The translations under genes were made by a program, and so were the position numbers. A model generated the notes under the pieces. That model saw only the letters and a list, made by a program, of their open reading frames with translations, was not told where the DNA came from and did not search any database. Source: Tannerella sp. (lineage in GTDB: Bacteria > Bacteroidota > Bacteroidia > Bacteroidales > Tannerellaceae). From it: a stretch of DNA of 64,000 bases. The stretch is taken from positions 202,318 through 266,317 of the forward strand of contig JAITVY010000035.1 of assembly GCA_031285565.1 (NCBI GenBank), read 5' to 3'. This document shows positions 33,621 through 46,749 of the stretch, piece after piece; the first letter of the stretch is position 1, and each line of letters opens with the position of its first letter.

Positions 33621-35135
33621 ATGAAATTCAATTCGATGGCTAAAAGAAAAAATAAGGTGAGAAATTACGTAAGTGCCGAAGCATATCGACTCTCTCCTGA
33701 ATGGCAGCTATATGTTGCAGCTGTAACTTCTTCGTTGAGCGATAAGTTTTATGAAAAAGCACAGGACCGTGTTGAAGCATTACGCAAATTAATAAAACAA
33801 TGCGATCCGGTATTTGTAGCTCAACTGGCAGTATACACCCGCACGAAAATGAATCTGCGCTCCATACCTTTAGTATTGGCAGTTGAACTGGCAAAAGTAC
33901 ATTGCGGAGACGACCTTGTAAAAAGGATGACTTCACAGGTAATCCGGCGTGCCGATGAAATAACGGAGTTATTGGCTTACTATCAATTGGCAAACGAACG
34001 CGAAAGTATAAAAAAACTAAACCGCTTATCGAAACAGCTCCAAGTGGGGTTACAGGTTGCGTTCAACCAGTTCGATGAATACCAGTTCGCCAAATACAAC
34101 CGGGATACGGAAATAAAACTCCGGGATGCATTGTTTCTGGTTCACCCAAAAGCAAAAGATGAAACACAACAAGTGATATTCAATAAAATTGTGAATAATA
34201 CACTTGAAACTCCATATACTTGGGAAACTGAACTTTCTGCACTCGGAAAGGCACACTATGCTGATGATAACGAACGTTCAATTGCATTCCGCATGAAATG
34301 GGAAGAGCTGGTAGATAGCCAAAAACTCGGTTATATGGCGCTTATCCGTAATCTGCGCAATATACTGGAAGCCCGTGTTTCACAACAATGCATCGCAAAG
34401 GGATGTAATACACTGGCTAATCCTGAAGCAGTCCGCCGGTCAAAACAATTGCCATTCCGTTTTTTGGCAGCTTACCGTGAAATATCAAAAGTAAAATCAG
34501 CCTACGCAGGTCGTATGTTAGATGCATTGGAAGAAGCAGTTACTGTCTCAGCCAGAAGTATAACCGGTTTCGATGAGAATACAAAAGTATTGATTGCTTG
34601 TGATGTTTCAGGATCAATGCAACGTCCCCTATCGCCCAAAAGTAAAATATTATGTTACGACATTGGATTGATGATGGCGATGATTTTAAAATCACGTTGC
34701 AAAAATGCTATAACAGGTATATTTGGGGATAAATGGAAAGTAATAAACGTTCCGAGCAAAAGTATCCTGTCGAACGTAGACACATTATATCATTACGCAA
34801 ATGAAGTGGGTTATTCAACCAATGGCTATTTGGTTATTGAAGATCTTATCCGTCGAAAAGAACTGGTAGATAAAATCATGTTTTTTACCGACTGCCAGCT
34901 ATGGAATAGCCGGAATGACAAAAAGATAGTTGACTTGTGGAATACGTATAAAAAAATATCACCGGACAGCAAGTTATATCTTTTCGATCTGGCCGGATAT
35001 GGTAACACTCCGCTGGATACCAACCGTGAAGATGTGTATCTGATTGCAGGCTGGTCTGATAAAATATTCGACATTATAGCAGCTATCGATAACGGTAGCA
35101 ATGCACTGGGTGAAATAAAGAAAACAGTGCTCTAA
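33621..35135 (+). CDS. rsr: Ro60/TROVE-domain RNA-binding protein with vWA MIDAS (bacterial Rsr-like)
   Basis: HEAT-like TROVE helices, then VLIACDVSGSMQRPLSPKSKI (MIDAS DxSxS) and IMFFTDCQLWN. Confidence 0.92.
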   Translation: MKFNSMAKRKNKVRNYVSAEAYRLSPEWQLYVAAVTSSLSDKFYEKAQDRVEALRKLIKQCDPVFVAQLAVYTRTKMNLRSIPLVLAVELAKVHCGDDLVKRMTSQVIRRADEITELLAYYQLANERESIKKLNRLSKQLQVGLQVAFNQFDEYQFAKYNRDTEIKLRDALFLVHPKAKDETQQVIFNKIVNNTLETPYTWETELSALGKAHYADDNERSIAFRMKWEELVDSQKLGYMALIRNLRNILEARVSQQCIAKGCNTLANPEAVRRSKQLPFRFLAAYREISKVKSAYAGRMLDALEEAVTVSARSITGFDENTKVLIACDVSGSMQRPLSPKSKILCYDIGLMMAMILKSRCKNAITGIFGDKWKVINVPSKSILSNVDTLYHYANEVGYSTNGYLVIEDLIRRKELVDKIMFFTDCQLWNSRNDKKIVDLWNTYKKISPDSKLYLFDLAGYGNTPLDTNREDVYLIAGWSDKIFDIIAAIDNGSNALGEIKKTVL

Positions 35136-35194: not shown

Positions 35195-35346
35195 AAAAAC
35201 AAGTGTCGTAAAGGAAAGATACTTCGCACTTAGGAAGCACTGTCGCAGGTTCGAATCCTGCTACTCCTACAGTTATCAACTAATACAACGGGAGTATCAC
35301 GGTGGGGCAGGAAGAAAAGACTTTCCTTGATTATTACCTTGTTTTT
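35195..35346 (+). ncRNA. Y RNA-like A (permuted tRNA-like module)
   Basis: 9-bp closing stem AAAAACAAG (35195-35203)/CTTGTTTTT (35338-35346); GTA/TAC; AAGGAAAG/CTTTCCTT (35211-35218/35321-35328); T-arm GCAGG-TTCGAAT-CCTGC (35245-35261); acceptor TACTCCT (35262-35268)/GGGAGTA (35290-35296). Confidence 0.85.
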
Positions 35347-35353
35347 AAAATAT

Positions 35354-35614
35354 AAACAAGTGCCGTAGAAAAGAGTTACTTCGCACTCTTAATGCCCGGG
35401 TCGTGGGTTCGAGTCCCACCACTTCCACCAGAAACAAAAAGAGAAAGGTTAAAGTAGAAGACTAAAGAAATAATTTACCTTCATCAATTAGTCTGATATT
35501 GCTGAATGAGGATAAAGTCTTTCACTCTCAATTTTCAATTCTCAATTACTGAAGGGAAGTGTAGCTCAGAGGATAGAGCAGGAATATAGTCTCTTTTCGC
35601 CTGTTGCCTTGTTT
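35354..35614 (+). ncRNA. Y RNA-like B (circularly permuted, near-complete tRNA-like domain with encoded ACCA)
   Basis: AAACAAG/CTTGTTT closing stem; GAAAAGAG/CTCTTTTC; T-arm GTGGG-TTCGAGT-CCCAC (35403-35419); acceptor CACTTCC (35420-35426) + ACCA (35427-35430) pairs with GGAAGTG (35555-35561); TA + D-arm GCTC-AGAGGATA-GAGC (35562-35579). Confidence 0.87.
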
Positions 35615-35621
35615 GCTATAA

Positions 35622-35740
35622 AAACCACATCTGTCGTAAAGGAGAAATACTTCGATTGCTAAAAGCCAAATAAATATGGGTTCAACACCCGGCAAAGTCC
35701 GGGCATGACAAAACATTTCTTTCTGGTCGTTGCCTGTAAT
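35622..35740 (+). ncRNA. Y RNA-like C (minimal T-arm-only module)
   Basis: TGTC-GTA (35632-35638), GGAGAAAT/ATTTCTTT stem, GGTCGT-TGC (35725-35733), TACTTCG, T-hairpin TGGG-TTCAACA-CCCG; closely resembles unit D. Confidence 0.7.
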
Positions 35741-35889
35741 AAAAAAGAAGAATGGATAATTCAAATTTACAATAAGAGATTAATTCGTTGTTAGCTGAAA
35801 AATGATCATCTAGGTATTATAGCATCTCATTAATAATCTATACATCAACATAATAAACATCAAACCTATTTAGACCAATTACAAACATA

Positions 35890-43335: not shown

Positions 43336-43372
43336 CATCATCAAACAAAATATCTTTATATGAAGCAATAAT

Positions 43373-43482
43373 ACAAGTGTCGTAAGAAAGAAATACTTCG
43401 ATAGCAAAGCCAAATAAATATGGGTTCGACTCCCAGCTAAGTCCGGGTGGGACAAAGCCTTTCTTTCTGATTGTTACCTTGT
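43373..43482 (+). ncRNA. Y RNA-like D (minimal T-arm-only module) in the 5' leader of the nucleotidyltransferase genes
   Basis: ACAAG (43373-43377)/CTTGT (43478-43482); TGTC; GTA/TAC; AGAAAGAAA (43385-43393)/TTTCTTTCT (43460-43468) 9 bp; T-hairpin TGGG-TTCGACT-CCCA; GTCC-GGGTG-GGAC hairpin. Confidence 0.85.
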
Positions 43483-43547
43483 AAAATTCTTCATAATAAC
43501 TTAAACAAATAAAGCACAAACATCACTCAAAACAAAAACTGACAGGT

Positions 43548-44297
43548 ATGAAAACAATAATAGAAAGAAAACTAACTGAAATAGAACAAACACATGAAAT
43601 AAAAATACTTTATTCATGCGAATCCGGCAGCCGGGCATGGGGTTTTCCATCTCCCGACAGCGATTACGATGTTCGTTTTATATATTTGTATACACTGGAA
43701 GATTACCTGACAATACAACCCAAAAAAGATCATCTGTCTTTCCCGATAAATGACGAACTCGATATATCTGGCTGGGACATATCGAAAGTACTCCAATTGA
43801 TAACAAAATCAAACACAACACCTTTCGAATGGCTGCAATCACCGGTAATATACAGGGAAAATCAGGCTCATAAAGAACAACTATGGCAACTATCCCAAAA
43901 CTATTTTTGTCCGCGAAGCAACATACACCATTATTTAGGCGTTGCACGCGGAGCAATGGAAACAATGCAAGACGAATACATAAAAATAAAAAAACTGTTT
44001 TATGTACTTCGACCGTTGCTTGCAGCCCTGTGGTGTGTAGAACGTGCCTCCATAGCACCGATGAATATACTTCCGTTAATGGATTTATTATCCGGCGATC
44101 TGCAGGAAAAAATAGTATCTTTGATAAATCTGAAAGCGACTGCTACCGAAGGCTACCTGATAAAAATAGATACGGATTTAAAACAATGGATAAACCAAAC
44201 GTTCGATGATTGCTTAAAAGCATCACAACAAATGGGAAGAAAAACTTTTGAGATAGGAAAAGCCGATCAATTATTTAGAGAAATAATACAAGCATAA
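43548..44297 (+). CDS. RlaP/MNT-type nucleotidyltransferase (PF10127-like)
   Basis: YSCESGSRAWGFPSPDSDYDVRFIYLY polymerase-beta-type GSxxWG...DSDxDV motif. Confidence 0.85.
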   Translation: MKTIIERKLTEIEQTHEIKILYSCESGSRAWGFPSPDSDYDVRFIYLYTLEDYLTIQPKKDHLSFPINDELDISGWDISKVLQLITKSNTTPFEWLQSPVIYRENQAHKEQLWQLSQNYFCPRSNIHHYLGVARGAMETMQDEYIKIKKLFYVLRPLLAALWCVERASIAPMNILPLMDLLSGDLQEKIVSLINLKATATEGYLIKIDTDLKQWINQTFDDCLKASQQMGRKTFEIGKADQLFREIIQA

Positions 44298-45361
44298 TGA
44301 CGATACAGGAAATAAAAGAAAAAAGCCTGCTGCTTTTCGAATGCATAAGTGGTAGCAAAGCATATGGGTTAGATACGCCACAATCAGATACAGATCTGAA
44401 AGGAGTCTTCTATCTGCCCAAAGAACAATTCTACGGACTGGACTATATACCACAGGTAAGTAATGAAACCAACGATGAGGTATATTATGAATTAGGGCGT
44501 TTTGTCGAACTACTATGCAAAAACAACCCTAACATACTCGAAGTACTCGCAACACCCGAAGAATGTGTCTTATATAAACACCCCTTAATGGATATGCTTC
44601 ATATAGAAATGTTCTTATCCAAACTATGCAAAGACACTTTTGCCGGGTATGCTCTAACACAGATACGAAAAGCCCGGGGCTACAAAAAGAAAGTGGTAAA
44701 CCCGATGGATAAAGAACGTAAAACGATTCTCGACTTCTGCTATATAATGGACAACAACCTGTCTGTTCCCGTAAAAGAGTGGCTTGATAAAAAAGGCTAT
44801 ACACAGGATTTATGCGGATTAAGCTCCATATCACATGCCAAAGGAATGTATGCCATATTTTATGATGCGGACAACAAATACGATTATCATGGTATAGCTG
44901 CAAAAGAATCTGCAAACGAAGTTTCACTATCATCCATACCAAAAGGAGAAAAACCTATTGGCTATCTATTCTGGAATATGGAAGCATACTCACTTTATTG
45001 CAAAGAATACAAGGAGTACTGGGACTGGGTAGCAGAACGTAACGATGCCCGCTATCAAACCAATATGGAACATGGCAAAAATTACGATTCGAAAAATATG
45101 ATGCACACCATACGCCTCTTGCAGGTTGCCGAAGAAATACTGCGTGACGGCAAACTCAATGTTAAGCGCCCAAACCGGGAACAACTGCTTTCCATAAAAT
45201 CGGGACATATGGATTACAATGACTTATTGGCTATAGCCGACCAACTGATGGAAAAAATAAAAGTATATTGTTTAACATCATCATTACCCGATGCTCCCGA
45301 TAAAAAACAGGCAGAAAGAGTTCTGGTGAAAATAAGGGAAGCATTATATGAATCAAAATAA
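44297..45361 (+). CDS. Second RlaP/MNT-type nucleotidyltransferase (PF10127-like)
   Basis: FECISGSKAYGLDTPQSDTDLKGVF; ATG overlaps the upstream stop (TAATG). Confidence 0.85.
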   Translation: MTIQEIKEKSLLLFECISGSKAYGLDTPQSDTDLKGVFYLPKEQFYGLDYIPQVSNETNDEVYYELGRFVELLCKNNPNILEVLATPEECVLYKHPLMDMLHIEMFLSKLCKDTFAGYALTQIRKARGYKKKVVNPMDKERKTILDFCYIMDNNLSVPVKEWLDKKGYTQDLCGLSSISHAKGMYAIFYDADNKYDYHGIAAKESANEVSLSSIPKGEKPIGYLFWNMEAYSLYCKEYKEYWDWVAERNDARYQTNMEHGKNYDSKNMMHTIRLLQVAEEILRDGKLNVKRPNREQLLSIKSGHMDYNDLLAIADQLMEKIKVYCLTSSLPDAPDKKQAERVLVKIREALYESK

Positions 45362-45441: not shown

Positions 45442-46749
45442 ATGATACAATTAAAAGGAAAATACAATCAGGATTGCAAAATATTCATTGACCAGGTCGA
45501 AGCCGAAGCTATCGAATTAGTCAAAAATATTCTTAATCAGGAAATATCCAAAGGAGTACCTGTACGTATTATGCCGGATACACATGTAGGAAAAGGAATC
45601 GTTATTGGGTTTACCATGCCAATGACCAAAATGGTTAATCCAAACTATATCGGAGTTGATATCGGCTGTTCCGTAACAAGCTACCGCTTAAACAAACGTT
45701 TCGATGCTGCCGAACTGCCGCGAATCGATAAAACAATCAGAAAAGCTGTTCCTATGGGTCATGATATCCGGAAAAGCCGTGATTTTAATCATTGGTGGGT
45801 AGACGAATATCTGCAAGCTGCTACACAAAATGTAAACAACTTCCAAAACGAATGGAATATACGCTTTTCCGATAATAAACAAACCATAACAATCGATAGA
45901 GAATATATATCCGGATTATGTCAAAAAGTCGGGATAGAAGAAAGAATGTTTTATAACTCGGTTGGTTCGCTGGGAGGAGGAAACCATTTCATTGAGATTG
46001 GAGAATCGGCAAACGACGGTTCGCATTACCTGACTATACATTCAGGTTCACGAAACTTCGGATTAAAAGTGTGCAATTATCATGCGAAAAAGATGATACC
46101 GGCAAAAAAATTGCCTCAGGAATATTACGATAAGTTTGAGGATATTACCAAAAATACAATCCCCACTACCGATATACCGTCCAGGTTAGCACAACTTAAC
46201 GAAGCATATAAAGTCGGGAAAAAAGAATATATGCTCGAAGACGATGATATGTACAACTACCTGGTAGATATGATAATTGCACAAACTTACGCCGAATTCA
46301 ATCACCGCGCTATGGCACACGCCATATTTGTTGGATTACGCGATGTTGAAGCTACGGATATGGTTCATTCAATGCATAACTTTATCGACACACGCGACTG
46401 GATCATCCGTAAGGGAGCTATCCGCGCCTATAAAAACGAACGAATGATTATCCCGTTCAATATGCGCGACGGACTGTTAATCTGTGAGGGTAAAAGCAAT
46501 GTCGACTGGAACTGTTCGGCTCCGCATGGCGCCGGACGAATACTCGCAAGAAACCAGGCAATGAAAACATTGGATATGACTGAATTTGAAAACGAAATGA
46601 AAGGAATATATTCAACATCCGTTTGCCAGTCAACACTCGATGAGTCACCAATGGCTTATAAAGATAAAGATACAATCATCGAAGCCATCAAAGATACAGC
46701 CACCATCCTCGATACAATAAAACCGGTATTAAATATCAAAGCAAACTGA
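45442..46749 (+). CDS. rtcB: RtcB-family RNA-splicing ligase
   Basis: MPDTHVGKGIVIGFTM; NYIGVDIGCSV; GSLGGGNHFIEIG; HSGSRNFG; SAPHGAGRILAR. Confidence 0.97.
   Translation: MIQLKGKYNQDCKIFIDQVEAEAIELVKNILNQEISKGVPVRIMPDTHVGKGIVIGFTMPMTKMVNPNYIGVDIGCSVTSYRLNKRFDAAELPRIDKTIRKAVPMGHDIRKSRDFNHWWVDEYLQAATQNVNNFQNEWNIRFSDNKQTITIDREYISGLCQKVGIEERMFYNSVGSLGGGNHFIEIGESANDGSHYLTIHSGSRNFGLKVCNYHAKKMIPAKKLPQEYYDKFEDITKNTIPTTDIPSRLAQLNEAYKVGKKEYMLEDDDMYNYLVDMIIAQTYAEFNHRAMAHAIFVGLRDVEATDMVHSMHNFIDTRDWIIRKGAIRAYKNERMIIPFNMRDGLLICEGKSNVDWNCSAPHGAGRILARNQAMKTLDMTEFENEMKGIYSTSVCQSTLDESPMAYKDKDTIIEAIKDTATILDTIKPVLNIKAN

Follow-up and report, generated by a model that had tools for sequence, protein, structure and literature searches.

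The Ro60 locus and its Y RNAs

The DNA analyzed here (the window) is a stretch of 64,000 nucleotides from a Tannerella sp. genome assembly of 118 contigs and 83% completeness. On its + strand, which also carries the Y-RNA-like sequences, the two RlaP genes and the RtcB gene described below, a Ro60/Rsr protein gene (33621-35135) encodes the Y RNA partner, with a TROVE domain (Pfam TROVE, 7e-30) and a Ro60-type vWA domain (vWA_Ro60, 2e-7). Three Y-RNA-like sequences, designated A, B and C, are located downstream of this gene. Y RNA A (35195-35346) has the same permuted architecture as B, and in its predicted fold the acceptor strands TACTCCT (A3, 35262-35268) and GGGAGTA (A5, 35290-35296) pair around a 21-nt loop (35269-35289) whose first bases are ACAG. 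Y RNA B starts about 220 nt beyond the end of the Ro60 gene, and Y RNA C (35620-35745, ends approximate) carries the motif GTCGTAAAGGAGAAATACTTCG at 35633 together with a T-arm-like GGGTTCAACACCC, and is without a D-arm. A fourth Y-RNA-like sequence, of the C type, lies just upstream of the RlaP gene (43370-43505, ends approximate; motif match at G000:C50:245696, window 43379). It is preceded by TTTACTTTGCATCATCAAACAA, which is near-identical to stretches upstream of Y RNA A and of a second Y RNA cluster in this genome, and which on sequence grounds is possibly a shared promoter of the Y-like RNAs.

The genes encoded between 36010 and 46749 of the window specify a Band-7/SPFH protein, an NAD-kinase-like protein, a methyltransferase-domain protein, PARG, NADAR, an NrtR-like Nudix protein, two RlaP-family nucleotidyltransferases (43548-45361, comprising 43548-44297 and 44297-45361; Pfam RlaP 1e-72 and 1e-23) and an RtcB RNA ligase (45442-46749; Pfam RtcB 5e-58). 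This region constitutes an RNA/NAD repair neighbourhood around Ro60.

Y RNA B probably extends from about 35354 to 35614, as judged from its terminal helix AAACAAG/CTTGTTT and from alignment with relatives, and would measure 261 nt uncut or 137 nt minus its spacer. Stem 1 is formed by AAACAAG (35354-35360) with 35608-35614 (pair probabilities 0.52-1.0) and stem 2 by AAAAGAG (35369-35375) with 35591-35597 (probability 0.95). The conserved Y RNA 5' motif GCCGTAG...ACTTCG (35362-35383) was found in most of the Ro60-locus relatives fetched, and the 3' strand of stems 2 and 1 (CTCTTTT...CTTGTTT, 35591-35614), assigned by motif, alignment and fold, includes the conserved CGCCTGTTGCC. Between these end stems the elements follow one another as T-arm (GTGGG-TTCGAGT-CCCAC, 35403-35419; sequence, family comparison and fold), acceptor 3' strand A3 (CACTTCC, 35420-35426; sequence, alignment, covariation and fold), an encoded ACCA at positions 73-76 of the tRNA-like domain (35427-35430), a poorly conserved spacer of 124 nt (35431-35554; alignment), acceptor 5' strand A5 (GGAAGTG, 35555-35561; alignment and fold) and D-arm (TAGCTCAGAGGATAGAGC, 35562-35579; sequence and alignment). 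The acceptor loop thus totals 128 nt, and the acceptor pairs form with probabilities of 0.97-1.0 in the full-length RNA fold. An earlier, sequence-only reading of the window had placed a 124-nt spacer between the encoded ACCA (ending at 35430) and the acceptor 5' strand (from 35555); these coordinates are exact, and its comparison of the arrangement with permuted tRNA genes is borne out by the order of the elements, which matches the acceptor end of a permuted pre-tRNA or a two-piece tmRNA. The B region did not fold with better energy than shuffled sequences (z = 0.40), so that the case for B rests on homology and not on energy.

B lies beside Ro60, its ends are paired and carry conserved motifs, and its T-, acceptor and D-arms occur in permuted order, as in tRNA-like bacterial Y RNAs. 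It is almost certainly a tRNA-mimicking bacterial Y RNA with an end stem presumed to bind Ro60 and with a circularly permuted T-arm, acceptor stem and D-arm. The best characterized comparison is YrlA, which has D, T and acceptor arms with a long end stem and a reported size of 90-150 nt (PMC8394870), and whose structure can be laid over tRNA only when circular permutation is allowed for (PMC11472068). YrlA (PDB 6CU1) and B have in common the Ro60 neighbour, the long end stem, the T-, acceptor and D-arms and the circular permutation relative to tRNA, but B has a 128-nt acceptor loop with an encoded ACCA where YrlA has a short loop. B is a Y RNA variant with a long loop, of the known tRNA-mimicking bacterial kind. 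No Rfam family matched the window at gathering thresholds; in a relaxed scan against YrlA (RF02553) copy A scored 16.7 bits (gathering threshold 69) and B was not listed. Membership of B in the tmRNA or tRNA families was rejected, the relaxed scan having returned only sub-threshold matches to tmRNA, tRNA, YrlA and unrelated families. ARAGORN detected no tRNA in the window, and no anticodon arm was seen in the alignment of B with its relatives.

Acceptor pairing and loop length among relatives

For comparison, 80 Ro60 relatives were fetched with their flanks, and whole-genome motif searches were added. About 60 RNAs encoded next to Ro60 in Bacteroidota have the permuted tRNA-like architecture. 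In 95 family RNAs A5 was assigned from the D-arm motif, independently of pairing; on average 6.0 of their 7 acceptor positions could pair, compared with 3.6 when partners were shuffled (maximum 4.0 in 1000), and several pair types were present at each acceptor position. On this comparative evidence the acceptor strands of B are homologous acceptor strands, not a chance match. As the permuted order is shared across the family, it is not special to the B locus, and what sets B apart is the length of its loop: 128 nt, against 3-27 nt in the relatives, with one of 45 nt and several that are UUCG tetraloops. Since many relatives close the acceptor with loops of 3-10 nt or UUCG, cleavage is neither a requirement of the family nor needed for the fold. 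Order- and class-wide motif searches returned few further copies outside this genome, none with a loop longer than 30 nt. Alongside the permuted type, a second Y RNA type with strong conservation (GGGGAGGAATAGYGARG...TATCCGGTTCGACTCCGGC...GCCCCG) turns up repeatedly in Bacteroidota; the GGGGAGGAATAGYGARG-type RNA is present at loci L047, L049, L050, L051, L055, L058, L158, L160 and L205.

The motif search also identified a second B-type RNA in the same genome (G000:C50:93429), on the same contig as B and 144 kb away. Its flanks align closely with B, and all 7 of its acceptor pairs are retained, including one G-U. The loop of this copy is 85 nt long, starts with TCCC where B has ACCA, and ends in the same dispersed repeat as that of B, five bases before the acceptor 5' strand. 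The two copies thus have a long loop in common, but not the encoded CCA; C74 and an intact acceptor are present in both, and common descent is the likely source, we infer, of the long loop of both. In this second cluster (G000:C50:93421-93730; L158, 1492-1800) the B-type RNA is followed by a Y RNA of the second type, and no Ro60 gene was found in the 3-kb locus around it.

With respect to the spacer, the relatives have 3-27 nt or unrelated sequence at its position, in agreement with the proposal of the sequence-only reading that it is disposable, and the comparison across homologs which that reading had suggested showed the spacer not to be conserved in relatives. The intergenic-type tract recognized within it (TCAATTTTCAATT, TCAATTTTCAATTCTCAATTA) is indeed one of about 40 dispersed repeat copies in the genome, its TCAATT tract belonging to a heptamer-like repeat. 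This intergenic repeat, (TTTTCAAY)n ending in TCAATTA, occurs in the window at 35518-35548 (the 3' end of the spacer), 37174, 6135 and 41637, and at about 40 sites in the genome. The internal pair AGACTAA/TTAGTCT that had been pointed out is present but not above chance, since 68% of the dinucleotide-shuffled spacer sequences also contain an inverted repeat of at least 7, and was rejected as a meaningful pair. Nor was the spacer significantly more permissive of acceptor pairing than expected, being equalled by 10% of shuffles for B and by 43% for the second copy. Separate transcription of the two halves of B was also considered and appears unlikely; inspection by eye revealed no Bacteroidota-type promoter (TAnnTTTG) in the spacer.

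The tRNA-like start of long acceptor loops

Long loops in the family usually start with R73-C74, as does the tail encoded by Bacteroidota tRNA genes. In a sample of Bacteroidota tRNA genes taken from this genome (L126-L155) and from loci L046-L125, C74 was encoded by 130 of 135 genes (32/32 in this genome, 98/103 in relatives) and full CCA by 17 of 135 (3/32 and 14/103, respectively). A limited literature search found no paper on near-universal C74 with rare CCA in Bacteroidota tRNA genes. In a hand-curated sample of Y RNA loops, from which six false or tRNA matches had been removed, a purine-C start was observed in 27 of the 35 loops of 11 nt or more, a boundary chosen after the list was seen, where 3.3 would be expected (p about 1e-21, uncorrected for phylogeny), and in 1 of the 23 loops of 10 nt or less. 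Because the sampled loops cluster phylogenetically, the raw p-values exaggerate the strength of the signal; counted by genus, C74 was present in 13/16 long-loop genera versus 1/12 short-loop genera (p = 0.0003). Three of four loops inspected afterwards agreed with the tail signature (L005, L157 and L205, but not L168). In addition, T at N(-1) was enriched in long loops (17/35, p = 0.002); most host tRNA genes likewise have T(-1), the optimal base for RNase P (PMC9433436). As read from these sequences, the R73-C74 start of long loops would support tRNA-type processing.

Proposed excision of the spacer and alternative readings

It is plausible that the loop is cut out to leave a two-piece Y RNA. 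The long acceptor loop would then be equivalent to a tRNA 3' trailer fused with a 5' leader, with RNase P cleaving at 35554/35555, immediately before A5, and a 3' activity maturing the other end at or close to 35427-35430. The resulting two-piece Y RNA, of about 77 + 60 nt, would be kept together by stems 1 and 2 and by the acceptor stem. The cleavage, its sites and its enzymes we infer by analogy with two-piece tmRNA and permuted tRNA genes. RNase P and tRNase Z probably take part in maturing the precursor of two-piece tmRNA (PMC3985003). Two-piece tmRNA (permuted ssrA) and B share the succession of acceptor 3' strand, CCA, intervening segment and acceptor 5' strand, and RF04321 aligns to the T-arm, ACCA, spacer and acceptor of B at 22.8 bits, a score far below the cut-off of 47 and confined to the acceptor half. 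Unlike two-piece tmRNA, B has no tag-coding or pseudoknot part; an ordinary tmRNA is encoded elsewhere in the genome (G000:C13:70657, 141 bits). Permuted tRNA genes offer a model for processing (PMC3978253). The circularly permuted tRNA genes of algae and archaea pass through circular intermediates by BHB splicing and have a whole tRNA as product, but B has no anticodon arm and its ends are paired into a stem.

Excision of the spacer by RNase P and 3' maturation to give a two-piece Y RNA is the reading that we place first, tentatively and at somewhat under even chances. The genome encodes both RNase P RNA and RNase Z, the two pieces are predicted to stay paired (cofold binding energy -15 kcal/mol), and minus its spacer B would measure 137 nt, to be compared with the 90-150 nt reported for YrlA. 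B also presents an acceptor/T stack and RCCA as for an RNase P substrate. RNase Z is disfavoured by an encoded CCA. The leader base N(-1) of B is G, a reported anti-determinant for RNase P (PMC9433436), and C75-A76 are predicted to be paired (0.92-0.94), so that RNase P should be slowed. For B itself the processing case is therefore mixed, with encoded RCCA on one side and G(-1) and paired C75-A76 on the other. Also against cleavage, the acceptor loops of 3-10 nt in many relatives can hardly be excised, the second long-loop copy is without CCA, and the R73-C74 tail could be an inheritance from a tRNA ancestor. Of the excision first proposed from the sequence, the layout and the disposable spacer stand, joined now by the R73-C74 tail, but the fold does not need the cut and B carries anti-determinants. 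The proposed hand-over of the excised ends to RtcB is chemically wrong. RtcB joins a 3'-phosphate or cyclic phosphate to a 5'-OH, and RNase P with 3' maturation leaves a 5'-phosphate and a 3'-OH; ligation of the proposed ends by RtcB was therefore rejected. The nearby nucleotidyltransferases are RlaP-type.

An uncut, tolerated loop has nearly the same likelihood as excision, and we likewise give it a substantial but minority chance. B would then be a one-piece Y RNA in which the acceptor loop is a tolerant site, the 124 nt being a neutral expansion tied to the dispersed repeat, with nothing removed. The free variation of loop length in relatives, from 3 to 45 nt and with tetraloops included, would be expected of such a site, as would the nearly complete acceptor pairing (0.97-1.0) of the full-length RNA and a spacer that ends in a repeat present at about 40 other sites. 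A neutral loop leaves unexplained, however, why long loops and not short ones start with R73-C74 across many genera, and at 261 nt the uncut RNA would exceed the reported size range. The long-loop tRNA-like tail might instead be a functionless relic of tandem tRNA genes (a 3' half, a spacer and the next 5' half), a reading that concerns origin, is compatible with an uncut RNA and appears unlikely to us. Two tandem tRNA genes would indeed give the order T-arm, acceptor 3' strand, tail, spacer, acceptor 5' strand and D-arm, and ordinary-looking tandem tRNA genes adjoin Y RNAs at locus L071, but a relic should decay evenly and only positions 73-74 are kept across many genera while the rest of the loop diverges. 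That B is a decaying copy, disrupted by insertion and functionless, is improbable: its loop is an outlier, its spacer ends in a dispersed repeat and the genome holds a second copy at another site, but all helices and the conserved motifs flanking the spacer are intact and align closely with relatives, and the second long-loop copy retains 7/7 acceptor pairs with one G-U.

That bacterial Y RNAs are tRNA mimics was known already, and most of the relatives compared here have a short loop at the acceptor end. For the family as a whole, we consider it possible, with rather less than even confidence, that long-loop Y RNAs of Bacteroidota are made two-piece by tRNA end-processing enzymes, leaving a free acceptor end whose 3' terminus could be extended, charged or monitored, with B as the extreme case. 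The R73-C74 signal, confined to long loops, makes this testable in named Dysgonomonas and Chryseobacterium isolates; long loops occur in Dysgonomonas sp. Marseille-P4677 (L051), and Chryseobacterium loci L077 and L112 have ACCA loops. If true, this would add to tmRNA a second natural bacterial example of a tRNA-like permuted RNA that comes in two pieces. If RNase P opens part of this family, there would be Ro60 particles with a real tRNA-like end, linking Ro60 directly to tRNA maturation and repair.
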